DNA from: Rhodanobacter sp.
GTDB lineage: Bacteria; Pseudomonadota; Gammaproteobacteria; Xanthomonadales; Rhodanobacteraceae
Direction of reading: 5' to 3'
Assembly: GCA_004322005.1 (NCBI GenBank)
Contig: SCRF01000033.1
Location: 1-57,018, forward strand
Length of the DNA stretch: 57,018 bases
In this document: piece by piece, positions 13,724-35,965 of the stretch
Layout of the letters: each line of letters starts with the position of its first letter
How positions within the stretch are numbered: position 1 is the first letter of the stretch
The notes under the pieces: generated by a model
The model's input: only the letters and a program-made list of their open reading frames with translations
Told to the model about the DNA's origin: nothing
Database searches by the model: none
Translations under genes and position numbers: made by a program

Positions 13724-14473
13724 ATGAAGACAAGCCCTGGAACGCATCTGACCCGAATACATGCTGCCGTGGCGTGGTTCGTTGCGGTCACTTTTGTTGG
13801 CGCTTCCGGTCACGCTGTTGCCGCGGCGAAAGTTCCCGATACCCTCCAGCAGCGCATTGCTGCCTGCACGGCCTGTCATGGCGTGCATGGCGAGGGTGAG
13901 CTGAAGAGCGGTTTCTTTCCGCGTCTGGCCGGCAAGCCGGCTGCGTATCTGGCGCGCCAGCTGCAGAATTTCCAGGACGGTCTGCGCAAGTACGCGCCGA
14001 TGGAGTACACGGTGCGTCAGCTCAGTCCTGCCTACATGCGGGAGATCGCCGAGTACTTCGCCACCCAGCAGGTGCCGTACGCTCGCTCGCCGGTACCGAA
14101 TGCATCGGCGGCGATGCTGCAGCGTGGCGAGCAACTGACCAGCCACGGCGATCCGGCGCTCAAGATTCCCGCATGCAGCAGCTGCCACGGGACGCAGCTC
14201 ACCGGGGTGCAGCCGTCGATTCCTGCGCTGGTGGGCCTGCCGTACGACTATGTGAGTTCCCAGCTGGGTTCATGGCGTACCGGCACGCGTGCCAGCGCGG
14301 CACCGGACTGCATGGCAGTGATAGCCCGCCGCCTTGGTGCGTCGGACATCAGTGCAGTCGCCACCTGGCTGGCCAGTCGCGAGCTGCCGGCCGATATGCA
14401 GGCACAGCCGGCGGGCTCGATCAAGCCGCCGTTGCGCTGCGGTGTGCTTGGCGAGCATGGGGGTGGGGCATGA
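13724..14473 (+). CDS. Di-heme cytochrome c (c4-like)
   Basis: This is a periplasmic electron carrier of about 249 residues. A signal peptide (hydrophobic segment about residues 13-35 ending AVAAA) is followed by two heme c motifs, CTACH (C48, C51, H52) and CSSCH (C151, C154, H155), each in a c4/c553-type domain. The ATG may be 13721 or 13724; no Shine-Dalgarno is visible, and TATAAT lies at 13712-13717. Its stop overlaps the start of the following tri-heme cytochrome (ATGA), so the two form a unit, probably part of a dehydrogenase electron chain. Confidence 0.88.
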   Translation: MKTSPGTHLTRIHAAVAWFVAVTFVGASGHAVAAAKVPDTLQQRIAACTACHGVHGEGELKSGFFPRLAGKPAAYLARQLQNFQDGLRKYAPMEYTVRQLSPAYMREIAEYFATQQVPYARSPVPNASAAMLQRGEQLTSHGDPALKIPACSSCHGTQLTGVQPSIPALVGLPYDYVSSQLGSWRTGTRASAAPDCMAVIARRLGASDISAVATWLASRELPADMQAQPAGSIKPPLRCGVLGEHGGGA

Positions 14474-15765
14474 AATGGATCGGCCGTATCCTGCCGGGTG
14501 CGCTCGTGCTGACGGTATTGGCCATCGGCGGATGGCTCCTGCTTGCTTCGCGCGGCGGCGGATTGGCGGTACCGTCAGCGGCGATCGTCACGGCGGAGAA
14601 TCTGCACGATCCGGCGCTGATCGCCAGGGGCCGCTATCTGGCCATCGCCGGCGATTGCGCGGCCTGCCATACCGCGCAGGGTGGCATGCCCTATGCGGGT
14701 GGACGTTCCGTGTCCACGCCATTCGGCAGCATTCCAGCTCCCAACCTCACGTCCGACCGCGCGACCGGCATCGGCCAGTGGAGCTTTGCGGATTTCTGGC
14801 GCGCGCTGCATGCGGGCAGGGGGCGCCGGGGCGAGCTGCTGTACCCCGCGTTTCCTTACACCTCGTACACCCGGGTCACTCGCGATGACGCACTGGCGAT
14901 GTTCGCCTACCTGCAGACGCTTGTACCGGTGCACACGCCGTCCGGGGCGTCGGGGCTGGATTTCCCCTACAGCATGCGCAGCAGCCTCGCTGCATGGCGA
15001 GCGATGTACTTCAATGAAGCTGGGTACCGGCCCGAGCCGGCCAAGTCGCAGGCATGGAATCGTGGCGCCTATCTGGTGCAGGGGCTTGGTCACTGCAACG
15101 AATGCCATGCGGCGCGTGACGCACTGGGTGGCGTGTCCGGCCATCCCGCGCTGTCCGGGGGCCGGATTCCGGAACTGGACTGGTATGCGCCCGACCTGAG
15201 CACGCGTGCCGGCGGCGGCCTGCAGGGCTGGAGCGAGCAGGATATCGTCGACCTGCTGCAAACCGGCCGGTCGGCGAAAGGCGTGGCCTTTGGTCCGATG
15301 GCCGAGGTGGTGGCGGACAGCACCCAGTACATGTCGGGTGATGACCTGCGGGCGATCGCCACCTATCTGCATGCATTGCCGCCACGGGCGCAACCGGCGG
15401 AAGCCACGCCGCAATTCGACGCCAGGGCGCTTGCCCGGCAGGGCGGCAAGGTCTATGGACAGCACTGCGCGGATTGCCACGGCAAGGATGGTGAGGGTGT
15501 GGCCGGCGTCTATCCGCCACTCGACGGCAACTCCGCGGTGACCGAGCCGACCGGCATCAATGCCACCCGGATGGTCCTGCTTGGCGGGTTTGCCCCGCTG
15601 ACCCAAGCCAACCTGCGCCCCTACTCGATGCCACCGTTCGCCCAGCAACTGAACGACAGCGAGGTGTCCGCGGTGGTCAGCTATATCCGGCAAGCATGGA
15701 CGAATCGGGCGCCGGTGGTTCGGCCCGAGGATGTGAGCCACTATCGGCACACGCCAATGGACTGA
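14470..15765 (+). CDS. Tri-heme cytochrome c (gluconate/alcohol dehydrogenase type)
   Basis: This 431-residue protein has an N-terminal membrane anchor or signal (residues 7-26) and three heme c motifs: CAACH (C63-H67), CNECH (C209-H213) and CADCH (C333-H337). Spacing and length match the tri-heme cytochrome subunits of membrane-bound gluconate 2-dehydrogenases and PQQ alcohol dehydrogenases, which pass electrons to ubiquinol oxidases. No dehydrogenase subunit is adjacent, so the partner is unknown. It begins by ATGA overlap with the di-heme cytochrome gene. Confidence 0.88.
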   Translation: MKWIGRILPGALVLTVLAIGGWLLLASRGGGLAVPSAAIVTAENLHDPALIARGRYLAIAGDCAACHTAQGGMPYAGGRSVSTPFGSIPAPNLTSDRATGIGQWSFADFWRALHAGRGRRGELLYPAFPYTSYTRVTRDDALAMFAYLQTLVPVHTPSGASGLDFPYSMRSSLAAWRAMYFNEAGYRPEPAKSQAWNRGAYLVQGLGHCNECHAARDALGGVSGHPALSGGRIPELDWYAPDLSTRAGGGLQGWSEQDIVDLLQTGRSAKGVAFGPMAEVVADSTQYMSGDDLRAIATYLHALPPRAQPAEATPQFDARALARQGGKVYGQHCADCHGKDGEGVAGVYPPLDGNSAVTEPTGINATRMVLLGGFAPLTQANLRPYSMPPFAQQLNDSEVSAVVSYIRQAWTNRAPVVRPEDVSHYRHTPMD

Positions 15766-19353: not shown

Positions 19354-20856
19354 ATGCCAGTGAGTGAAGAAATCCTGATCAACGTGACCCCGCGCGAGAC
19401 GCGGGTCGGCGTGGTCGAAAACGGCATGCTGCAGGAGGTGCACGTCGAGCGGGCTTCCAAACGGGGCTATGTCGGCAACGTGTACAAGGGCCGGGTACAG
19501 CGGGTGATGCCTGGCATGCAGGCGGTGTTCGTGGAGATCGGACTCGATCGCGCGGCGTTCCTGCATGCCTCCGATATCGTGCGGCCGGCGTTGCCGGCGT
19601 CCGTCGAAGGGGTTGAATCGAACGGCAACGGTCATGTTCCATCGATCAGCGAACTGGTGCACGAGGGCCAGGAGATCGTGGTGCAGGTGGTGAAGGATCC
19701 GATCAGCACCAAGGGCGCGCGGTTGTCGGCGCATCTGTCGATCCCCTCGCGCTATCTGGTGCTGCTGCCGTACGCCCGCACGCTGGGTATTTCCACCCGT
19801 ATCGAGGACGAGGCCGAGCGCCAGCGGCTGAAGGAGGTATTGACTTCGCTGATCGGCGAAGACGCATCGGGCAGCGGCCGGCCCGGCTACATCGTGCGCA
19901 CCAACGCCGAGGGCCAGAGCGCCGAGTCGCTGGCGTTCGACGTGGCCTACCTCGGCAAGGTGTGGCGGGTGGTGCAGGAGAACATCGCCAAAGCCAAGGT
20001 GGGCGAGCGTGTCTACGAGGAACTCTCGCTGCCGTTGCGCAGCCTGCGCGACATGCTCAACGACGACATCGAGAAGGTGCGGGTGGATTCGCGAGCGATG
20101 TACGAGAAAGTGGTCAAGTTCGTGCACAAGTTCATGCCGAGCCTGGACGATCGTATCGAGCATTACGATGGTGAACGACCGATCTTCGATCTGTACGGCG
20201 TCGAGGACGAGATACAGCGGGCGTTGAAGAAGGAAGTGCCACTGAAATCGGGTGGCTACCTGATCGTCGACCAGACCGAGGCAATGACGACCATCGACGT
20301 CAACACCGGTGCCTATCTGGGCTCGCGCAACCTGGAGGAGACGGTCTACCGCACCAACCTGGAAGCGGCGCAGGCGGCCGCGCGGCAATTGCGACTGCGC
20401 AATCTGGGCGGCATCATCATCATCGACTTCATCGACATGCTCGATGAGGAGCACAAGCGCCAGGTCTTGCGCATGCTGAACAAGGGGCTGGCACGCGACC
20501 ACGCCAAGACCACGGTGTATCCGATGTCGGCGCTGGGGCTGGTGGAAATGACCCGCAAGCGCACCACCGAAAGCCTGGCCCGGCAGCTGTGCGAGCCGTG
20601 CCCGACCTGCAACGGTCGCGGCGTGATGAAGACTGCGGAAACGGTAACCTACGAGATCTTTCGGGAAATCACCCGCGCCGTGCGCCAGTTCAATGCCCAG
20701 AAACTGCTGGTGATGGCCAGTCCGCTGGTGGTCGACCGGATTCTGGAAGAAGACTCCAGCGCGGTTGCCGAACTGGAAGAGTTCATCTCCAAAAGCATAC
20801 GCTTCCAGGCCGAAGAGCATTACTCGCAGGAACAGTTCGATGTCGTTTTGCTGTAA
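19354..20856 (+). CDS. rng: Ribonuclease G
   Basis: RNase G is an RNase E-type endoribonuclease that matures the 16S rRNA 5' end and degrades some mRNAs. The 500-residue protein starts MPVSEEILINVTPRETRV (a GTG two codons later is possible). It has the S1 domain (YVGNVYKGRVQRVMPGMQAVFVEIG), the catalytic segments IVDQTEAMTTIDVNTG and IIIIDFIDM, and the zinc-link CPTCNGRG. It lacks the long C-terminal scaffold of RNase E, which is also encoded in this window. It is followed by a yhdP-like gene, a common arrangement in gammaproteobacteria. Confidence 0.96.
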   Translation: MPVSEEILINVTPRETRVGVVENGMLQEVHVERASKRGYVGNVYKGRVQRVMPGMQAVFVEIGLDRAAFLHASDIVRPALPASVEGVESNGNGHVPSISELVHEGQEIVVQVVKDPISTKGARLSAHLSIPSRYLVLLPYARTLGISTRIEDEAERQRLKEVLTSLIGEDASGSGRPGYIVRTNAEGQSAESLAFDVAYLGKVWRVVQENIAKAKVGERVYEELSLPLRSLRDMLNDDIEKVRVDSRAMYEKVVKFVHKFMPSLDDRIEHYDGERPIFDLYGVEDEIQRALKKEVPLKSGGYLIVDQTEAMTTIDVNTGAYLGSRNLEETVYRTNLEAAQAAARQLRLRNLGGIIIIDFIDMLDEEHKRQVLRMLNKGLARDHAKTTVYPMSALGLVEMTRKRTTESLARQLCEPCPTCNGRGVMKTAETVTYEIFREITRAVRQFNAQKLLVMASPLVVDRILEEDSSAVAELEEFISKSIRFQAEEHYSQEQFDVVLL

Positions 20857-20877
20857 GTCGGGTCCGGATTGCCTCGC

Positions 20878-23800
20878 ATGAAGAAGCTGTGGCACCGACG
20901 GCTGCATCGTTGCGCCCGGGCGTTGAGCTGGACCACCGGCGTGGCCGTGATCCTGCTTGCCGTGCTGGCGGCGCTGACGCAATTGCTGCTGCCGTTGATG
21001 GCGCGGCACCCGCAGTGGGTGGCCGAACAGCTCAGTCAACGGCTGCAGCGGCCGGTCGCCTTTGCCTCGATGCAGGGGCGCTGGACGACCTCCGGGCCGC
21101 TGTTCATCATGCATGGAGTCACGATCGGTGCAGCTGCTGGCGAAACGGGCTCCGAGTTGCGGATACCGGAGTCCGAACTGAAACTCGACTTTGGCGGCTG
21201 GCTGCTGCCTTCGCGGCACCTGCTGAATCTGCACGCAAGAGGGTTGCAGCTGAGTCTGCTGCATGGTGCCGACGGGGTGTGGCATATCAATGGCATCGGT
21301 GACGCCAGTGGCGTGCATCAGCAGCCGGTATCGCTGGGCAAGCTCTCTCTGGGCCTCTGGCTCGATGACCTGCAGGTCGTCATCACCGACGCCAAGCTCG
21401 GGAAAAATTACACGCTGCTGGCCCGGCAGTTGCGCTTGAGTGCGCAAGGTGACCAAATCCGCTTTGGCGGCATGCTGCAGCGTGCGGGGGTGGCCGCCGC
21501 ACTGCATGCGGCCGGCCGGTTTCGTGCGGATGGCAGTGCCGGCCAGATCTGGCTCGGTACCGATGGTGTCGAACTCGGGCCACTGCTGGATGGCATCGAT
21601 CCGGGTGGTTACAAGGTCGAGCAGGGGCAGGGCAAGCTGGCAGCCTGGCTGGATTGGCGCAAGGGCAGACTGACCAGCAGCCTGGTCCGCTTCGACCTGG
21701 ACAAGCTGGTGGTGACAGCCCCCGGCGGTGCTGTGGCGAACGTGTCCGGATTGCACGGACTGGCTGGCTTGTATTGCATCGGCGAGAACTACGATGTGCG
21801 CTGGGCTGGCGACGACGGCAGCACGCTGGCATTCAATTTGCGGCAGCCCGGCGGCCCGCAAGCCAGTGTGAATGTCGCCGCGCGCGATCTGCAGGTAGGA
21901 CCGTTGCTGCCATGGCTGGCCCTGAAGCCGGCGCTTGCGCCGGCGTTGGCCGAATGGATGGGCAGTGGGCATCCGCGCGGTGAGGTGGCCAGTGCCGCGC
22001 TGCACTGGAGTCGTGCCGATGGTCTGCAGGGACTGGATCTGACTTTCAGGGATCTGATGATCGGCCCGGTCGGCAAACTGCCGGGCGTGGAGGGGCTGCG
22101 CGGCGAGTTGCGCGGCGATGCCGAGGCGCTGTCGCTGGAGCTGCCCGCGCAGGCCACCACGCTGCAATTTCCGCACCGGTTTCGCCAGCCATTCGTGCTG
22201 TCGAAGCTGGCCGGCACGCTGGCATTCTGGCCACAGGATGGCGACTGGCACATCGGCGCGGATGCGCTCGATTTCGTCGGCACGGGATATGCCGGACAGG
22301 TTCGCGGCGAGGTTGTGTTCCCGGCGCAGGGCGGTGCGCCGTTCATGGATATGTATGCCAGGCTCGACCACGCCGAGGTGCCATCGGCAAAGTTGTTCTG
22401 GCCGCTCGGCTCGATGTCGCCCGGCACCATCGAGTGGCTGGATCGTGCCTTGGTGGCCGGCAGCATCGATCAGGCACAGGTGCTGTTGCGTGGCAATCTG
22501 GCCGATTGGCCGTTCCGTCACAACGAAGGGCGCTTCGAGGCACGTGCAGCGATCAGCGGTCTGACACTCGACTACGGCGAGGATTGGCCGCGCGTGGAAG
22601 GCGCTTCCGCGGTGGTCAGCTTCGTCGACAATGGCATGCTGGCTGAAGCGAGCAGCGGTCATTCGCTGTCCGTCACCGCCGACAAGGCGGTTGCGGTGAT
22701 TCCCGATTTCGCCGACGGCCTGCTCGACCTGAGCGTGCAAGGTGGCGGCAGCGGTGCGGGTCTGATGGAGTTTGTGCGCAAAAGCCCGATCGGCATTCAT
22801 CAGGCGGACACGCTGGCCAAGCTGAAACTCGGTGGTAGCGGCACCTTTGATTTTCATCTGGTGTTGCCACTGAAAAAGATCGGTGACGCGCAGCTGGATG
22901 GCACGGCGCAATTGAAGGACGCCGACCTTGCGGCACCGGAATGGAAGCTCAAGCTCGACAAGCTCAACGGTCCGCTGCGATTCGATTTGCATGGCATGCA
23001 GGCCGGGCCGCTGACGGCAGATTTTCGCGGTCAACCGTCCAGGTTCACGCTGGCGATCGCCGGAGCCAACAGCGACCCGGGCACCGTGTTGTCGGCACAG
23101 TTGCGCGGCAGTTACCGGATTGACGAGCTGGTACAGGACTATCCAGCCTTGCACTGGCTCGGCGAATTGGCCAATGGCCGCAGCGATTTCACGATCGGTT
23201 TTGTGCTTGCGCACGTACCCGGCAGCGGTGCCTTGGCGCAAACCCTCAGCATCGATTCGCCGCTGAGCGGAATGACGCTGGGTCTGCCGGCGCCACTGGA
23301 CAAATCGGCTGCCGCCAGTCTGCCGCTGCATTTGAGCATGAGCCTGCCGGTCAGCGGCAGCGATCTGAAAATTGCGCTGGGCCAGGTGTTGCGCGGGCGC
23401 ATCAAATTGCCCGCCGGCACGCAGCAGGCGCTGGCGGCCACCCTGACATTCGGCAACCAGATGCCGACTGGCCTGCCCGAGCGCGATCTGCGCATTCGCG
23501 GTCATGCCGACCAACTGGATGTCACCGGCTGGGTGCAGCGTGCTGTTGCCGGCGGCGGTGGCGGTGGCCCGGGACTGGAGAGCGTCGACGTCAGTACCGA
23601 TCATGCCGCGGTGTTCGGTCGCCCGCTGGGTTCGATGCAGATCCGTGTCACACCGCAGTCAGGCACACTGGGCATCAACGTGATGGGTGCCGCCATGGCC
23701 GGCAACTTCAGCGTGCCCCTCCAGGAGCTGAGCAAGCGCGGCGTCACGGCCCGGTTGCAGCGGTTGTACTGGCCGAAAGAGCCGGCGTCCGGGCTCGCTG

Positions 23801-24777
23801 CCGATGCAGCGTCGCCCACTGTCTCCGCAGACCCCGCCGACACCGGCATCAACCCGGCAGCGTTGCCGCCCATGCACCTCTGGGTCGGTGATCTGCGTTT
23901 GGGTGATGCAAAACTCGGCGAATCCCGCCTGGAGACGTGGCCGACCGCCAGCGGTATGCATATCGAGCAGTTGCGCTCATTGTCCAGCGGCGTGCAGATC
24001 AACGGGAGCGGCGACTGGGACGGCACCGCCAGCAACAGTCACACGCACATGCGGATCGATTTTGCGGCCGAAGATCTCGGTGCGATGCTGAGCGCATTCG
24101 GTTACGAAGGACTGGTTGATGACGGCAAGACGCATGATCAGCTCGATGCCACCTGGCCAGGCGCACCCAGTACCTTGTCGTTGGCAAATATGGATGGCAC
24201 CCTGAGCATCCATGTCACCAACGGTCATATCCCTGCAGTGACGTCCCCCGGGGTCGGGCGGCTGCTGGGACTGGTTTCGCTGTCCGAGCTGCCGCGCCGG
24301 CTCACCCTCGACTTTGGCGACGTGTTCGGCAAGGGTGTGGCGTTTGACTCGATTGCCGGCGATTTCAAGCTTGCCAATGGCAACGCCACTACCAGCAACC
24401 TGCTGATCAAGGCGCCAGCGGCGAATATCAGCATCACCGGCCGCACCGGCTTGCGGGCCAGGGATTACGACCAGCAGGTACTGGTTGTTCCACACGTCGG
24501 CAACAGCCTGCCACTGGTCGGCGCCGTAGTCGGTGGCCCGATTGGTGCGGCGGCCGGGCTTGCGGTGCAAGGCCTGCTTGGCCGGGGGCTGAACCAGGCC
24601 TCCAGTGCGCGCTACACGGTCACCGGAAGCTGGGACAAACCGGTGATGACCCTGGTAGAGAAACGTGCTGCAGGGGCGCTGCCCGTGGCTCCGCTGCTCT
24701 ATCCCGCCGCTGAGGGTAGTGCGCCGGCCGCCGCCAGCAGTGTGGCGCCGGCAGGCTCCAGCCCGGTAGGTCACTGA
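20878..24777 (+). CDS. yhdP: YhdP-family AsmA-like protein
   Basis: This very large protein (about 1299 residues) has an N-terminal transmembrane anchor (residues about 15-38) and a long beta-rich periplasmic body typical of AsmA-like YhdP (DUF3971 plus an AsmA-2 C-terminal region). In E. coli, YhdP with TamB and YdbH transports phospholipids to the outer membrane. The C-terminal part contains the TSPGVGRLLGLVSLSELPRRL segment diagnostic of the family. I start at ATG 20878; a TTG at 20869 is in frame. It follows rng by 21 bases, as in other Proteobacteria, so the two are likely cotranscribed. Confidence 0.92.
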   Translation: MKKLWHRRLHRCARALSWTTGVAVILLAVLAALTQLLLPLMARHPQWVAEQLSQRLQRPVAFASMQGRWTTSGPLFIMHGVTIGAAAGETGSELRIPESELKLDFGGWLLPSRHLLNLHARGLQLSLLHGADGVWHINGIGDASGVHQQPVSLGKLSLGLWLDDLQVVITDAKLGKNYTLLARQLRLSAQGDQIRFGGMLQRAGVAAALHAAGRFRADGSAGQIWLGTDGVELGPLLDGIDPGGYKVEQGQGKLAAWLDWRKGRLTSSLVRFDLDKLVVTAPGGAVANVSGLHGLAGLYCIGENYDVRWAGDDGSTLAFNLRQPGGPQASVNVAARDLQVGPLLPWLALKPALAPALAEWMGSGHPRGEVASAALHWSRADGLQGLDLTFRDLMIGPVGKLPGVEGLRGELRGDAEALSLELPAQATTLQFPHRFRQPFVLSKLAGTLAFWPQDGDWHIGADALDFVGTGYAGQVRGEVVFPAQGGAPFMDMYARLDHAEVPSAKLFWPLGSMSPGTIEWLDRALVAGSIDQAQVLLRGNLADWPFRHNEGRFEARAAISGLTLDYGEDWPRVEGASAVVSFVDNGMLAEASSGHSLSVTADKAVAVIPDFADGLLDLSVQGGGSGAGLMEFVRKSPIGIHQADTLAKLKLGGSGTFDFHLVLPLKKIGDAQLDGTAQLKDADLAAPEWKLKLDKLNGPLRFDLHGMQAGPLTADFRGQPSRFTLAIAGANSDPGTVLSAQLRGSYRIDELVQDYPALHWLGELANGRSDFTIGFVLAHVPGSGALAQTLSIDSPLSGMTLGLPAPLDKSAAASLPLHLSMSLPVSGSDLKIALGQVLRGRIKLPAGTQQALAATLTFGNQMPTGLPERDLRIRGHADQLDVTGWVQRAVAGGGGGGPGLESVDVSTDHAAVFGRPLGSMQIRVTPQSGTLGINVMGAAMAGNFSVPLQELSKRGVTARLQRLYWPKEPASGLAADAASPTVSADPADTGINPAALPPMHLWVGDLRLGDAKLGESRLETWPTASGMHIEQLRSLSSGVQINGSGDWDGTASNSHTHMRIDFAAEDLGAMLSAFGYEGLVDDGKTHDQLDATWPGAPSTLSLANMDGTLSIHVTNGHIPAVTSPGVGRLLGLVSLSELPRRLTLDFGDVFGKGVAFDSIAGDFKLANGNATTSNLLIKAPAANISITGRTGLRARDYDQQVLVVPHVGNSLPLVGAVVGGPIGAAAGLAVQGLLGRGLNQASSARYTVTGSWDKPVMTLVEKRAAGALPVAPLLYPAAEGSAPAAASSVAPAGSSPVGH

Positions 24778-24899
24778 CTCGCCGCCAGACGGTTGCCGTC
24801 CAGATGAAACCGGTACAACACCGGCCCGGTGAACCCATCAAGCCGGCAGCCGCCAATTTGCCGGTGGGCGTCGCCAGAGAACATGCCGTCGATCACCAC
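24771..24899 (-). pseudogene. Possible remnant reading frame antisense in the yhdP-tldD gap
   Basis: On the minus strand the 190-base gap reads GTG-ATC-GAC and on through LDGFTGPVLYRFHLDGN to a TGA that overlaps the yhdP end. About 43 codons look protein-like (GFTGPVLYRF), unlike the random frames around it. There is no ribosome-binding site and no recognisable family. It may be the tail of a lost gene or chance. The rest of the gap holds nothing I can name. Confidence 0.2.
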
Positions 24900-24967
24900 G
24901 GCTTTAAAGCGGCGGGAGCGAACCCCATGTGAAATAGTTCCTGACCGACCGCCGATACCCCTGACTT

Positions 24968-26407
24968 ATGGATTCCCTGATCGCACAAGCCGAGAGCAGG
25001 CTGCTTGTTCCCGGTGGCCTCGCCACTGGCGACCTGGATCGCGTGTTCGCCCAGTTGATGGGCCCGTCGATCGATGCCGCCGACCTGTATTTCCAGCATT
25101 CCCGCAGCGAGTCGTGGTTGCTGGAGGAGGGCATCGTCAAGGATGGCAGCCACTCGATCGAGCAGGGTGTGGGCGTACGCGCGATCAGCGGCGAAAAGAC
25201 CGGTTTCGCCTATTCCGACGAAATCGTGCTGCCGCAGCTGATGGAGGCGACCAGGGCCGCGCGCGCGATTGCCCGGGACGGTCACGGCGCCGGCCGGCCG
25301 CTCGCGCTGAACGGTGCACGGGCGCTGTATCCGGCGATCGACCCGGTCGACAGCCTGCCCAATCCGGACAAGATCGCGTTGCTGCGCGAGGTCGACGCCT
25401 ACGCCCGCGCGCGCGATCCGCGTGTCAAGCAGGTGATCGTGAGCCTGGCCGCGACCATCGACACGATCCTGATCGCCGCTTCCGACGGCACCCTGGCGGC
25501 CGATGTGCGCCCACTGGTGCGGCTCAGCGTGCAGGTGATAGCCGAGCAGAATGGCCGCCGCGAACAGGGCCAGGGCGGTGGTGGCGGTCGCTACGGATAC
25601 CGTGAGTTGATCGAGAACGGCCGCGCCCTGGCGTTCGCCGCCGAAGCCGTGCGCCAGGCGCTGGTGAACCTCGACGCCGTCGACGCTCCGGCCGGCAACA
25701 TGACCGTGGTGCTTGGCCCCGGCTGGCCTGGCGTGCTGCTGCACGAGGCGATCGGGCATGGCCTGGAGGGCGACTTCAACCGCAAGGGCAGCTCGGCGTT
25801 CGCCGGCCGGCTCGGCCAGCGGGTGGCCGCGCCGGGCGTCACCGTGGTGGACGACGGCACCCTGGCCGGCCGTCGCGGCTCGCTGAGCGTGGATGACGAG
25901 GGCACGCCGACCGAGTGCACCACGCTGATCGAGAACGGCATCCTCAAGGGCTACATGCAGGACAAGTTGAATGCCCGCCTGATGGGCATGACACCAACCG
26001 GCAACGGCCGGCGCGAATCGTTCAGCACGCTGCCGATGCCGCGCATGACCAATACCTACATGCTGGCCGGGTCGCACGATCCCGCGGAGATCATCCGCTC
26101 GGTCAAGCGTGGCCTCTACGCGCCGAATTTCGGCGGTGGCCAGGTCGACATCACCAACGGCAAGTTCGTGTTCTCCGCCAGCGAGGCCTACCTGATCGAG
26201 GACGGGCGGATTACCGCGCCGGTCAAGGGGGCCACGCTGATCGGCTCGGGTCCGGAGGTACTGAACCGGGTCTCGATGATCGGCAACGATCTCAAGCTGG
26301 ACGATGGCGTCGGGGTGTGCGGCAAGGACGGCCAGAGCGTACCGGTGGGCGTGGGGCAACCGACACTGAAGATCGATGGCATGACAGTGGGCGGCACCGT
26401 TTCATAG
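24968..26407 (+). CDS. tldD: Metalloprotease TldD
   Basis: TldD forms a heterodimer with TldE/PmbA, a zinc protease that degrades unfolded peptides and matures microcin B17. The 479-residue protein has the metal-binding motif [12 protein letters not shown] (HExxxH) near residue 260 and ends with the conserved [22 protein letters not shown] segment. It is the partner half with the metal site. pmbA/tldE is not in this window. A repeat-rich gap follows. Confidence 0.96.
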
Positions 26408-26430
26408 GAAGAGCGCCCCCTCCCCATCCC

Positions 26431-26457
26431 TCCCTCCCCTGCATTGCAGGGGAGGGA
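26431..26457. repeat. GC-rich hairpin 1 after tldD
   Basis: TCCCTCCCCTGCA (26431-26443) and TGCAGGGGAGGGA (26445-26457) are perfect inverted arms with a single central base. It may terminate tldD transcription or be a dispersed chromosomal repeat. A second related hairpin follows at once. Confidence 0.75.
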
Positions 26458-26478
26458 GCATTCCCCACTGGCCTCGCG

Positions 26479-26524
26479 GCCCCTCCCAGCCTCCCCCTGC
26501 GAGCAGGGGGAGGCTGGGAGGGGC
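26479..26524. repeat. GC-rich hairpin 2 after tldD (22-bp arms)
   Basis: The arm GCCCCTCCCAGCCTCCCCCT-GC (26479-26500) is the exact reverse complement of 26503-26524, with a 2-base loop. Together with hairpin 1 it makes a C-tract/G-tract pair typical of dispersed CCTCCC repeats in xanthomonad genomes. No T-run follows. The rest of 26408-26783 shows no gene. Confidence 0.8.
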
Positions 26525-26783
26525 GCGCGTGACACTGGGTGGTGGATGCGTGGCGCAGTGTCGCAGCCTGTCGCGCAATATGTTGCACTGAAACGTCCCT
26601 GGCCCGGCTGAAATACCTCTTTCCAGCAGTTTTGCCGGGCCTGCCGATGTGCCATGAAGCCTGCAGCTGACTGCATTTGCGGTGGAAAAGAGGAGTTCGG
26701 TACGCGATATATCGGGGCCGCAAGATCTTGTGCTTTTTTGGGATTTATCGGCGTCGGGAGGGGGCGGCCAGGGGTGTATCAAT

Positions 26784-26870: not shown

Positions 26871-28253
26871 ATGTTTACGATGAGAAAGCGGAGTTCTGAC
26901 GGAGCCAGGCCAGCGCGCCGGCTGCTGCGCAAGGCTGCCGTGGCAGCGTGTTTGCTGTTGGCACCCACGCTGGCATTGGCGGTACCTTCGTATGCGCGTC
27001 AGACCCATCAGCCCTGCGTGGCCTGCCATGTCGGCGGCTTCGGCCCCGAACTGACGGTATTCGGGCGCGAGTTCAAGATCAACGGCTACACCATGAAGGT
27101 CGGCAACGACACCAAGGTGCCGCTCTCGGCGATGCTGGTCGAGTCCTTCACGCATACGTCGAAGGCGCAGACTTCGCCGCCGGCCAACGGCTTCGGTACC
27201 AACAACAACACCGAGCTGCAGCAGGCATCGGTGTTCCTGGCCGGTCGTCTGACCGATCACATCGGCGTATTTTCCCAGGCGACCTATTCGGAGAACGGCG
27301 GCTTGCTCGGCTGGGACAATGCGGACGTGCGTTACGCCAGCCCGTTCAAGCATGGCAATCACAGCGGCACCTGGGGCATTTCGGTCAACAACAACCCGAC
27401 CATCAGTGACGTCTTCAATTCCGCACCGGGCTGGATCTATCCCTACATGGGCTCTGACCTTGCTCCAGGTGCGCCGGCGGCACCGATGCTGTTCGGCGGC
27501 CTGGGTGGCCAGGCGATCGGTGTGACCGGCTATGCCCAGGTCGATGGCAAATGGTATGTCGAGGCCGGTGGCTATCGTTCCCTCTCGATCGCCTTCACCC
27601 ACCATGTCAATGCCGGCTACGACGGCAAACTTTCAGGTCTGGCCCCGTATGCCCGGGTGGCCTACACCTGGAACATTCCGCACGGCAACTTCACGTTGGG
27701 CGGTTTCCTGCTGGACATGAAGCGGGGCGGCCTGGGTACGGATCTGAACGGCAACGACATCCCGCTGGCCGGCCCGACCGACAACTTCGATGACGTGGGG
27801 CTCTCGGCCGACTACCAGCACTTCATGGGCGACAACGTCGTCACGGTCAACGGGCTGTACGTCCACGAGAAACAGACCCTCAACAACACCTACGACGGCG
27901 GCAACGGTTCATCGAATCTGCACAATACGCTGGATTCGTTCAACCTCAAGGGCAGCTACTGGTACCAGAATACCTACGGCGTGACGCTGGCCGGGTTTGC
28001 CAGCAATGGCAGCAACGACCTCCTCCTGTACGGCAACAACGGTTCGCCGAATACCCAGGGTGGCATGGTCGAGCTCAACTACAACCCGTTCGGCAAGTCC
28101 GACTCGTGGGAACAGCCTTACGCCAACGTGCGGTTGGGCCTGCAGTACACCTACTTCACCAAGTTCAGCGGCCTCGTGCACAATGTCGACGGTGCCGGGC
28201 GTAGTGCCAGCGACAACAACACGCTTTACTTCTACGTTTGGTTGGCGATCTAA
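26871..28253 (+). CDS. Cyc2-like fused monoheme cytochrome c and outer-membrane porin
   Basis: The 460-residue protein has a signal peptide (residues about 20-38, cleaved near ALA-VP), a heme c motif CVACH (C49, C52, H53) immediately followed by the conserved FGREFKINGYTM segment, then about 390 residues of alternating amphipathic strands rich in Tyr, Asn and Gly, as in a beta barrel. This order (CXXCH then FGR-FK-NGYT then porin) is that of the Cyc2 family, whose characterised members oxidise Fe(II) at the cell surface. Many family members are uncharacterised, so Fe oxidation here is an inference. A GAGGAG ribosome-binding site sits 9 bases before ATG 26871, and an FNR-like box lies upstream. 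A strong terminator follows, so it is monocistronic. Confidence 0.8.
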   Translation: MFTMRKRSSDGARPARRLLRKAAVAACLLLAPTLALAVPSYARQTHQPCVACHVGGFGPELTVFGREFKINGYTMKVGNDTKVPLSAMLVESFTHTSKAQTSPPANGFGTNNNTELQQASVFLAGRLTDHIGVFSQATYSENGGLLGWDNADVRYASPFKHGNHSGTWGISVNNNPTISDVFNSAPGWIYPYMGSDLAPGAPAAPMLFGGLGGQAIGVTGYAQVDGKWYVEAGGYRSLSIAFTHHVNAGYDGKLSGLAPYARVAYTWNIPHGNFTLGGFLLDMKRGGLGTDLNGNDIPLAGPTDNFDDVGLSADYQHFMGDNVVTVNGLYVHEKQTLNNTYDGGNGSSNLHNTLDSFNLKGSYWYQNTYGVTLAGFASNGSNDLLLYGNNGSPNTQGGMVELNYNPFGKSDSWEQPYANVRLGLQYTYFTKFSGLVHNVDGAGRSASDNNTLYFYVWLAI

Positions 28254-28284
28254 ACCGCAAGACATGATGTGTTGAGACATGAAA

Positions 28285-28317
28285 GGGTGGCTGGCCGCGA
28301 GGCCAGCCACCCTTTTT
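28285..28317 (+). terminator. Rho-independent terminator after the cytochrome-porin gene
   Basis: A perfect 12-bp stem (GGGTGGCTGGCC/GGCCAGCCACCC) with loop GCGA is followed by five T. It ends the monocistronic transcript 32 bases after the stop codon. The remaining gap 28318-28690 shows no recognised gene. Confidence 0.9.
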
Positions 28318-28696
28318 ATTGGGTACGCCCGGCAGGACGCACCTGTCCCGTACGCGCGATGTAGGCGACGGCTGACAGAAAGGGCCGTTTCAGAGTGGCA
28401 TATTGAGGGGCGATACCAGCAGGTGGCGCGCGTCGTATCGGTATTCGGTCTGTTCAGGGGATGCGGCGGACTCACGGTGACTGTTTCACTGGAATGATCG
28501 ACTGGACGTGTCGATGCATGTCGGCGGCCTCTTGTCGAACGTAGCCGGGTCGAGATTGTCGTGACAGTCATTCGCCGCTTGCTGGTTGTTCGCATGGCAA
28601 TCAAGCATGCTGTATCCCGCCAGGACATTGTCGAATGCCGGCAATACGGCGTTCTGCATCCTGCTTTCATGCAGCCCAATCCGAGGAGGTCGTGAA

Positions 28697-29179
28697 GTGA
28701 TCAATATTGTCCTTGAACTCACCGAACGCGTATGCCGGGCAAAGCTATCCACGCATATCGTCATCGTGACGGTGGTCGACGATGCGCGGTTCCCCAAGCG
28801 TCTGCTCGACGCGGGCGCGCTAGGTTACCTGACCAAGGGCTGCAGCGCCGAGGAACTGGTGTCCGCCGTGCGCCAGGTGGCCAGCGGTCGACGTTACCTG
28901 GCACCTGCCGTTGCCCAGCAACTGGCACTGGCGACCCTCGATGGCAGCACTTCACCTTTCGACGTACTGTCCAGCCGTGAACTGGAGGTGGCCATGATGC
29001 TGGTACGCGGCAAGCCGCTGACGATCATCGGCGAACAACTCAATCTGAGTCCGAAGACCGTGTCCACCTACAAGCAGCGGCTGATGGAAAAACTGCATGT
29101 CGATCATATTCTCAGCCTGGCCCACCTGATGACGGTGCATGGCCTGCTCGATGCACCCAACCATGAGGTGGGCAGCTGA
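28697..29179 (+). CDS. GacA/UvrY-type LuxR regulator lacking most of its receiver domain
   Basis: The 160-residue protein from GTG 28697 has an excellent ribosome-binding site (GAGGAGG, 7 bases upstream). Residues 1-6 (MINIVL) match the normal start of a response regulator, but the following 60 or so residues, holding the acidic pocket and the phospho-acceptor Asp, are absent; the sequence resumes at ICRAK-like helix and VTVVDD, then DAGALGYLTKGC and a complete LuxR helix-turn-helix (LSSRELEVAMMLVRG ... NLSPKTVSTYKQRL). It therefore cannot be phosphorylated in the usual way. Either a functional constitutive or antagonistic regulator or an internally deleted relic. It lies between the cytochrome-porin gene and rne. 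Confidence 0.8.
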   Translation: MINIVLELTERVCRAKLSTHIVIVTVVDDARFPKRLLDAGALGYLTKGCSAEELVSAVRQVASGRRYLAPAVAQQLALATLDGSTSPFDVLSSRELEVAMMLVRGKPLTIIGEQLNLSPKTVSTYKQRLMEKLHVDHILSLAHLMTVHGLLDAPNHEVGS

Positions 29180-35012: not shown

Positions 35013-35366
35013 TTACTTGTCGCCCTGGATATGTCCCTTCAGGGTACTGAGCTTGGTCGGCAGGCTTGAGAAATAGGCGGCGACATCCTCGATATCCTGA
35101 TCCGACAGCGTGGACGCCATGCCCTTCATGATCGGATTGTTGCGCTGGCCGTCCTTGTATTCATGCAGTACCTGCTGCAGGTAGAGGTTGTACTGCCCGG
35201 CCAGGCGCGGGTACTGGGGGTCGATTCCATTGCCATCGACACCGTGGCAGGCGAAGCAGGTAGCGGCCTTCTGCTTGCCATTCTGGATGTTGCCGCTGGC
35301 CAGCAACTGGCTGGAGGCAAACGCCAGCATGGCGCCGATCGAAAACAGGGTAAGCGCACGTCTCAT
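35013..35366 (-). CDS. Monoheme cytochrome c (class I)
   Basis: This 117-residue periplasmic cytochrome has a signal peptide (MRRALTLFSIGAMLAFASSQ) and heme motif CFACH (C37, C40, H41). A Met in MKGMAS near residue 85 is a probable sixth ligand. It resembles c553/c5-type small cytochromes. It lies 18 bases after a paralogous gene on the same strand; the pair are probably cotranscribed electron carriers. Confidence 0.9.
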   Translation of the reverse strand: MRRALTLFSIGAMLAFASSQLLASGNIQNGKQKAATCFACHGVDGNGIDPQYPRLAGQYNLYLQQVLHEYKDGQRNNPIMKGMASTLSDQDIEDVAAYFSSLPTKLSTLKGHIQGDK

Positions 35367-35384: not shown

Positions 35385-35708
35385 CTACTTGGCGAGGCTG
35401 GAAAGGTAGGCGGCGATGTTCTGGATGTCCGTGTCGGACAGACTCTGACCCTGCGCATCCATGGTCGGATGCTTGCGGTCGCCGCTCTTGTATCCATGCA
35501 GCGCATTGATGATGTACTGCTCATTCTGCCCGGCAATCTTCGGCACCGGATATTGCGGGTAGGCATTGCTGTAGCCGGGGACGCCATGGCAACCGGCGCA
35601 GGTGTAGATCAGTTTGCGGCCGGCAGCCTTGTCCCCTTCGGCATGCGCGCTGGTGGCGGCGATCAGAGCGGTGGCCACGGCCAAGCCTAGCAGTTGCAGT
35701 CGAGTCAT
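35385..35708 (-). CDS. Monoheme cytochrome c (class I), paralogue
   Basis: This 107-residue cytochrome has a signal peptide ending at SAHA and heme motif CAGCH (C37, C40, H41). The frame is open to 35774 but MTRLQLLGLAVA is the natural signal-peptide start. It is similar in plan to the downstream cytochrome (35013-35366): heme motif, YPQYP-x-IAGQ-like segment, and LSDxDIQNIAAYLSSL C-terminus, so the two look like a tandem duplication. Confidence 0.88.
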   Translation of the reverse strand: MTRLQLLGLAVATALIAATSAHAEGDKAAGRKLIYTCAGCHGVPGYSNAYPQYPVPKIAGQNEQYIINALHGYKSGDRKHPTMDAQGQSLSDTDIQNIAAYLSSLAK

Positions 35709-35965
35709 CGAAATCATCCCCGCGGGTACGCGCTGGTACAGAGTGATACAAGCCATTAAGTATAGACGTTGCACGAGGGGGCAGACAACACGCCGATGGC
35801 GAGTATCCGGTCGGTGACCGGATCACCGCAACTGCCGTGCATCGCTGTCTCGGCGATTTCGTGGACGTGGCGTCCCATGCCATCCCATATCACCGCCCGG
35901 CAGGGCTGCCAGCGGGTATGCGGACCAGATTCGGCGCATCCAGCGATGAGGCGGACGCCCGCGTA

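Follow-up and report, generated by a model that had tools for sequence, protein, structure and literature searches.

A Cyc2-like cytochrome-porin gene with an FNR/ANR-type upstream palindrome in a Rhodanobacter draft genome carrying a Calvin-cycle operon

Cyc2 has been proposed as a marker of iron oxidation, and what it does, and how it is controlled, in bacteria other than the classical iron oxidisers is at issue. Both questions are raised by a 57,018-nt stretch of Rhodanobacter DNA (the window). It makes up contig C14 in a draft genome of 3.6 Mb and 136 contigs (96.3% complete, 0.37% contamination) and encodes one heme c motif fused to a porin (Table 1). Our analysis suggests, with a probability of roughly 0.6, that the product is a Cyc2-like fused cytochrome-porin that takes electrons from Fe(II) or another small reductant and whose gene probably responds to a regulator of the FNR/ANR family. 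The protein kind and the host group are already known; the points of interest are the conserved FNR-type site, a Tyr form of the Cyc2 motif that falls through the published filter, and a host genome with a Calvin-cycle operon.

The protein is built as a preliminary description of the sequence had claimed, with a single CVACH joined directly to a porin. It has one CXXCH, is homologous to Cyc2 and takes a porin fold in the structure model (pLDDT 86, pTM 0.83), and the 16-strand barrel that had been set beforehand as a test was indeed predicted. Its start is signal-like, a basic stretch being followed by a hydrophobic one (helix 14-29 in the model), and its N-terminus contains LALAVPSYARQTHQPCVACHVGGFGPELTVFGREFKINGYTMK. 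Pfam, NCBIfam and PDB sequence searches of the protein returned no family and no match. The Foldseek matches of the model include OprP 2o4v and OprO 4rjw, the two structures named as Cyc2 templates in PMC8406198, where 16 strands are likewise predicted for Cyc2. Since the barrel matches general porins, the protein could also be a plain porin in which a CXXCH arose by chance and which has no working heme, but we regard this as very improbable, as a broad range of relatives keep the heme motif, the motif preceding it and the linker. The linker, described beforehand as Cyc2-type, is in place, and the pattern G..FK..[GA] recurs in 147 of 149 family sequences, all gathered by similarity; a Cyc2-type N-terminus, by a loose pattern, is found in 64 of 64 loci gathered by similarity.

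Table 1. Features of the Cyc2-like locus and of two other stretches of the same draft genome (window positions unless a contig is given)
Feature	Position	Strand	Remarks
cyc2-like gene	26871..28253	+	460 aa, ATG start; monoheme c-type cytochrome fused to outer-membrane porin
Sec signal peptide, likely	26871..26981	+	residues 1-37, cleavage ALA|VP, by eye
AVPSYARQT	26979..27005	+	Cyc2 motif AXPXFAR[QK][TY] with Tyr for Phe
CVACH heme c motif	27015..27029	+	residues 49-53; sole CXXCH of the ORF
PEL after CVACH			P is the sixth residue past the heme His
Linker FGREFKINGYTM	27060..27095	+	residues 64-75
Porin barrel, 16 strands, predicted	27123..28247	+	residues 85-459
Hairpin then T-rich tail, likely intrinsic terminator	28281..28316	+	z = -6.1, very stable
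FNR/ANR-type palindrome TTGATCGAGGTCAA, TTGAT-CGAG-GTCAA	26784..26797	+	first base 87 nt before the ATG; putative regulator site
Other cytochrome gene	14173-15765		three CXXCH
Other cytochrome genes	35013-35366 and 35385-35774
Calvin-cycle stretch	G000:C121:1-17452 (L192, L220)		cbbR, cbbL, cbbS, cbbX, fbp, prk, tkt, phosphatase, fba
Second Cyc2-like gene	L067:13030-16877 (G000:C129)		low-GC stretch

Judged by its sequence, the protein is a homolog of Cyc2 and probably shares its mode of action. In the description of PMC8406198 (Keffer 2021), a Cyc2 has at least 365 aa and a porin of 16 strands, and its heme motif is preceded by AXPXFAR[QK][TY] and followed by PXL. The window's protein is long enough at 460 aa, has its single CXXCH near the N-terminus and is predicted to carry the fused 16-strand outer-membrane barrel, and it has AVPSYARQT, with Tyr for Phe, at the preceding motif. 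Because of this Tyr we file it as a Cyc2-like homolog and not as Cyc2 by the published filter, sequences without PXFAR[QK][TY] having been taken out of the tree of PMC8406198. The best 120 listed proteins comprise 44 with the strict motif, 60 with the Tyr form, 11 with another form and five without the stretch, and the 149-sequence family set 88 strict, 20 Tyr and 41 other forms, so that 108 of the 149 have the strict or the Tyr form. By these counts the Tyr form sits within a family whose close members have Phe; it is common among the close relatives of the window's protein and yet lies outside the published filter, and surveys using that filter may undercount such genes. The P of PXL is the fourth residue after the heme His in 72 of the 149 relatives, the fifth in 9, the sixth in 66 and the eleventh in 2.

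Cyc2-like genes occur both within the family Rhodanobacteraceae and outside it. We found at least 1676 homologs at E <= 1e-3 among at least 7995 scored candidates; the top four are full length at 91-94% identity, and the named relatives among the matches listed are 'cytochrome C' proteins of Rhodanobacter, Dyella and Oleiagrimonas. A Cyc2-like match is present in 81 of 147 genomes and 18 of 26 genera of the family, and in 78 of 398 genomes of a phylum sample, where many of the matches cover just the N-terminal part. The scan of named genomes gave at least 566 relatives, the best 80 of which include Acidiphilium, Acidocella, Ralstonia and Paraburkholderia, together with metagenome-assembled genomes (MAGs) labelled Bacteroidetes, Nitrospirae and Rokuibacteriota, the phyla being those of the MAG labels. 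According to the preliminary description, the presence of a Cyc2 in a non-lithotroph lineage would be informative. Homologs from Rhodanobacter (He et al. 2016, for the Rhodanobacter of culture KS, via PMC5566968) and from Rhodanobacteraceae (PMC10654088) were already in print, the latter in a network that links the Cyc2 of A. ferrooxidans to a cluster including them.

Nine plasmid records carry a Cyc2-like gene. They include records of Acidithiobacillus ferrooxidans (L060, CP084173.1) and Acidiphilium cryptum (NC_009469.1), whose two genes match the query with one and the same identity and score, which suggests a shared mobile copy. In one relative the Cyc2-like gene is matched in two pieces (G008:C2:578231-579534) and looks broken.

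Both trees place the window's gene apart from the outgroup and within the large rest that holds the rus-type Cyc2. They were rooted by us on the group f39, which sits on a very long branch and is called Zetaproteobacteria-like on the strength of its sequences, and three partial sequences were left out beforehand. In the FastTree tree of 149 rows the window's gene is nested successively in sets of 5, 27 and 36 Rhodanobacteraceae rows (support 99, 99 and 100). In the IQ-TREE tree of 49 rows the nearest groups alone were recovered (3 rows at 97/89 and 4 rows at 100/99), the larger Rhodanobacteraceae group not being resolved there. Along the tree path the nearest copies belong to genus g13 and not to the syntenic copies of the window's own genus, while the highest raw identity in the tree set (72%) is to a syntenic own-genus copy. 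The f39 sequences align to the window's protein mostly N-terminally, with a best E of 2e-13.

The window's protein shares its general plan with two known Cyc2 types and differs from each. With the rus-type Cyc2 (Acidithiobacillus; Cluster 2, McAllister 2020, Keffer 2021) it shares the one CXXCH, the N-terminal cytochrome with a 16-strand barrel and an FG..FK-type linker, and the rus-type homolog falls on its side of both trees; this comparison was made without the chromosomal A. ferrooxidans Cyc2. Unlike the rus-operon Cyc2, the window's gene stands alone with no cyc1, cox or rus neighbours, and it differs in the Tyr of its motif, in the P of PXL at the sixth place after His and in its FNR-type site, no such site being found upstream of the rus-type Cyc2. 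The rus-type gene cluster was read from the ORFs of genome G790 and found via rusticyanin, with a match of 137 bits that is below the family cut-off of 146.7. In this cluster the Cyc2-like gene at L215:15466-16848 (G790:C3; ARQLGVSCAACH) stands with genes reading as coxA, ctaA and ctaB, close to the rusticyanin match. With the Cyc2 of the PV-1 type (Cluster 1: Zetaproteobacteria, Gallionellaceae) the protein shares the heme motif, the preceding motif, the linker and the single heme, whereas the f39 sequences, which are of the PV-1 type by inference, have Phe in the motif and, in 9 of 9, a PXL one residue nearer. MtoAB/PioAB likewise transfer electrons across the outer membrane through a barrel, but there a decaheme cytochrome is set in a 26-strand porin and two proteins are used (for MtoAB, PMC8406198); here a single protein has one CXXCH and 16 predicted strands, and thus not the separate multiheme cytochrome inside a 26-strand porin of MtoAB/MtrAB.

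The Cyc2-like gene is likely alone in its transcript. This had been stated beforehand. A gap of 463 nt separates the ATG from the tldD-like gene upstream (24968-26407, +) and a stable hairpin follows the gene, but simple scans gave neither a sigma-70-like promoter at the gene nor this hairpin as a terminator. The genes upstream read as rng-, yhdP- and tldD-like (19354-26407), a set common to 5 of 124 loci. Within the gap, GC-rich inverted repeats were seen by eye at 26420-26530, and the same gap is about 150 nt in the same-genus genomes G018 and G039 against 463 nt here. Downstream, a LuxR-type response regulator is found at 28586-29179; only the second half of its receiver domain matches, so that the gene may be truncated or its called start misplaced.

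A palindrome of the FNR/ANR type stands upstream of the gene and recurs at its relatives. It was first recognised by eye by its likeness to TTGAT-N4-ATCAA, which we take to be the FNR/ANR consensus, and the other loci were then tested. The 57 kb window has only two sites with at least 9 of 10 matches, this being one of them. Within 300 nt upstream, 53 of 122 Cyc2-like loci have such a site against 50 of 1292 control genes of the same loci, and it is found at 27 of 41 loci in Rhodanobacteraceae. Of nine Zetaproteobacteria-like loci, two have such a site. We then enumerated in 200 nt all palindromes with half-sites of five bases and a spacer of 0-12, which can take 13,312 forms (Fisher tests only for patterns seen at least four times), and TTGAT-N4-ATCAA came first (23/123 vs 16/1296, p = 6e-16). 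For non-redundant loci, the exact palindrome is present in 8 of 62 (p = 5e-6, or 0.07 after correction for the 13,312 patterns), and the degenerate TTGAY-N4-RTCAA in 16 of 62 against 31 of 1296 controls (p = 2.5e-11). Against intergenic controls, also of 200 nt (12/395), the p-value of the degenerate site is 1.8e-8, or 7.6e-8 without the window, and mononucleotide shuffles of the 62 loci gave it with a mean of 0.03 and a maximum of 1. The degenerate site is strongest in Rhodanobacteraceae (10 of 15 non-redundant loci) and weak outside (6 of 47, p = 0.001). We hypothesise, with these sites as support, that the Cyc2-like gene is under low-oxygen control, and FNR/ANR-family control would mean that the protein is made at low oxygen.

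The palindrome could belong to another regulator or be a chance occurrence, a possibility that we consider rather unlikely. The genome's nos and HiPIP stretches (L195 and L194) have no site with at least 9 of 10 matches, nor does the Calvin-cycle stretch (L192), and the weakness of the palindrome outside Rhodanobacteraceae points the same way. However, the FNR-type form is ranked first by the enumeration, the half-sites are kept across relatives while the spacer varies, and Crp/Fnr-type genes lie within six genes of nine Cyc2 loci. The genome also has a gene for an FNR-like regulator, whose N-terminal Cys cluster (CxxC) and ETVSR helix we take to be motifs of FNR-type regulators; against the Fnr model it scores 186 bits, where the cut-off is 228 bits, and its contig also holds norB-like and nos genes. 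The conserved site would be a concrete candidate switch in a family with culturable species. In a limited literature search the word FNR was absent from the main texts, including those of PMC12442390 and of PMC7029218 (McAllister 2020), which calls for testing the regulation of cyc2 in diverse organisms.

The partner evidence from relatives points to a HiPIP or a c-type cytochrome. A link to the small and multiheme cytochromes of the window had been proposed beforehand, and we dropped these as partners, since they are 7-12 kb away from the Cyc2-like gene and relatives have no such neighbours. In the relatives' loci a heme protein is the next same-strand gene in 50 of 123, against 0-6 of 95-122 at the other positions within six genes; 28 of these next-gene cases belong to one diheme family and 15 to one monoheme family. 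Five of the nine plasmid loci were inspected, and in each of them the next gene listed encodes a c-type cytochrome. Among the core Rhodanobacteraceae loci, by simple gene calls, none of the 35 has a heme gene at this position. Genes reading as HiPIP lie at most two genes away in 15 of 124 loci. Eight of these are Rhodanobacteraceae, with the HiPIP upstream on the opposite strand and homologous in 8 of 8 to the genome's own HiPIP; the remaining seven are pattern matches alone. The looser pattern was used for this list, as a stricter one was too strict and gave 0, and three of its 18 matches were left out at five or six genes away. The presence of a HiPIP as such does not discriminate, with a match in 139 of 147 family genomes, while the extra copies beside some of the family's Cyc2-like genes suggest a dedicated electron route. 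All neighbour counts and distances are approximate, as gene calls and starts came from simple scripts, and 6 of 130 loci in which the script recognised no Cyc2 gene were left out.

In the reading that we prefer, the small N-terminal one-heme c domain would plug or cap the 16-strand barrel in the outer membrane. The pore would admit dissolved Fe(II) or another small reductant to the heme, where the electron would be given up, and the heme would pass it to a periplasmic carrier, possibly a HiPIP or a c-type cytochrome. Transcription would probably be controlled by an FNR/ANR-family regulator at the upstream site. The homology, the heme motif, the linker, the signal-like start and the regulator-like site can be read in the sequence, and the barrel is predicted; we infer the place in the outer membrane, the position of the heme, Fe(II) as the substrate and with it a role in iron oxidation, and which carrier and which regulator take part.

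An alternative hypothesis could be that the protein is a true Cyc2-type cytochrome-porin with a protective or sensory task, oxidising stray Fe(II) or sensing it at low oxygen without supporting growth. The named carriers include Dyella and Rhodanobacter, which are known as organotrophs, and the lack of a heme gene directly behind the core loci would fit such a task as well. In Sideroxydans the expression of cyc2 does not track iron oxidation, and a constitutive Cyc2 is proposed as a possible Fe(II) sensor (PMC12442390), while the isolated KS Rhodanobacter is cited as unable to oxidise Fe(II) alone (PMC11366258). However, the same report, which describes proteins resembling Cyc2 and MtoAB from Rhodanobacter and Gallionellaceae, names Rhodanobacter an iron oxidiser and the dominant genus of its culture; the dedicated route suggested by the extra HiPIP copies, and a draft genome whose Calvin-cycle operon and NosZ make growth on an inorganic donor possible, also count against a protective or sensory task. 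We give this alternative a minority chance.

We consider it quite improbable that the protein is an electron port for some other donor or acceptor, such as manganese, humic substances or electrodes, and not for iron. According to PMC8406198, much of Cyc2 Clusters 2 and 3 awaits verification, Cluster 3 being the most uncertain, which leaves room for other substrates. Yet the one protein characterised functionally in each of the three clusters oxidises Fe(II) in all cases (PMC8406198), and one homolog of the window's protein stands, by reading, in a rus-type gene cluster.

By its gene content, the host is not simply a non-lithotroph, contrary to the earlier placement of the gene in a non-lithotroph lineage. 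The draft has a Calvin-cycle operon with a form I-type RuBisCO, in which cbbL, cbbX, fbp, prk and fba are above curated cut-offs and the other genes were named by reading, and NosZ was confirmed. RuBisCO matches are found in 12 of 147 family genomes and, within the genus, in 1 of 11, this genome alone. Sulfur oxidation as the donor was set aside, SoxB having no match in the draft. The same contig encodes, about 5 kb past the end of fba, a PQQ dehydrogenase of the methanol/ethanol family, and so methanol or another alcohol may feed the cycle instead of iron. The contig may also be mis-binned. For its PQQ dehydrogenase, the seven best matches in other genomes of the family reach 82-84% identity, whereas genus g25, home of the nearest RuBisCO, gave none at E <= 1e-80. 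Another contig of the draft (L200, G000:C66) has ORFs reading like a hydrogenase or a related membrane complex; PF00374 matches there over its first 73 positions only (39 bits).

An association of RuBisCO with Cyc2 across the family was considered and rejected as proof. A close Cyc2-like gene (>400 bits) is present in 9 of 12 genomes with RuBisCO against 28 of 135 without (Fisher p = 2e-4), one of the nine looking broken, but six of the nine are from one genus and the test on any hit gives 9/12 against 72/135 (p = 0.23).

The draft encodes a second Cyc2-like gene with 53% identity to the window's copy and without the FNR-type site. It lies within four 1-kb bins of 46-50% GC, which follow ten kilobases of 61-71%. 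It is accompanied by an SPW-domain membrane protein, which bears a single heme motif, and by two small cytochromes of the c type; a heme gene stands at +2, position +1 being occupied by a spurious ORF. The nearest copies of the second gene are in genome G056.

We speculate that the Cyc2-like genes of Rhodanobacteraceae, and some others, form an FNR/ANR-controlled low-oxygen module for electron intake, and that the host denitrifies, fixes carbon by the Calvin cycle and oxidises Fe(II) with two types of Cyc2, a combination that we hold to be unlikely as a whole. If it were true, one Cyc2 would be at a locus shared with same-genus genomes and the other, together with cytochromes of its own, on low-GC DNA that was acquired. 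The host would then be a self-sufficient counterpart of the Rhodanobacter from nitrate-reducing iron-oxidising cultures, described as needing the organic carbon of others. The Cyc2 of the KS Rhodanobacter is, by description, a protein of this kind from the bacterial group to which the host belongs, and PMC12622760 sums up a model of that organism as a chemolithoheterotrophic oxidiser that needs its partner's organic matter; unlike this model, the window's draft genome has a Calvin-cycle operon. Rhodanobacter is not mentioned in the main text of PMC12442345. At locus L100, a homolog of the SPW protein found beside the second gene follows directly after the Cyc2-like match.
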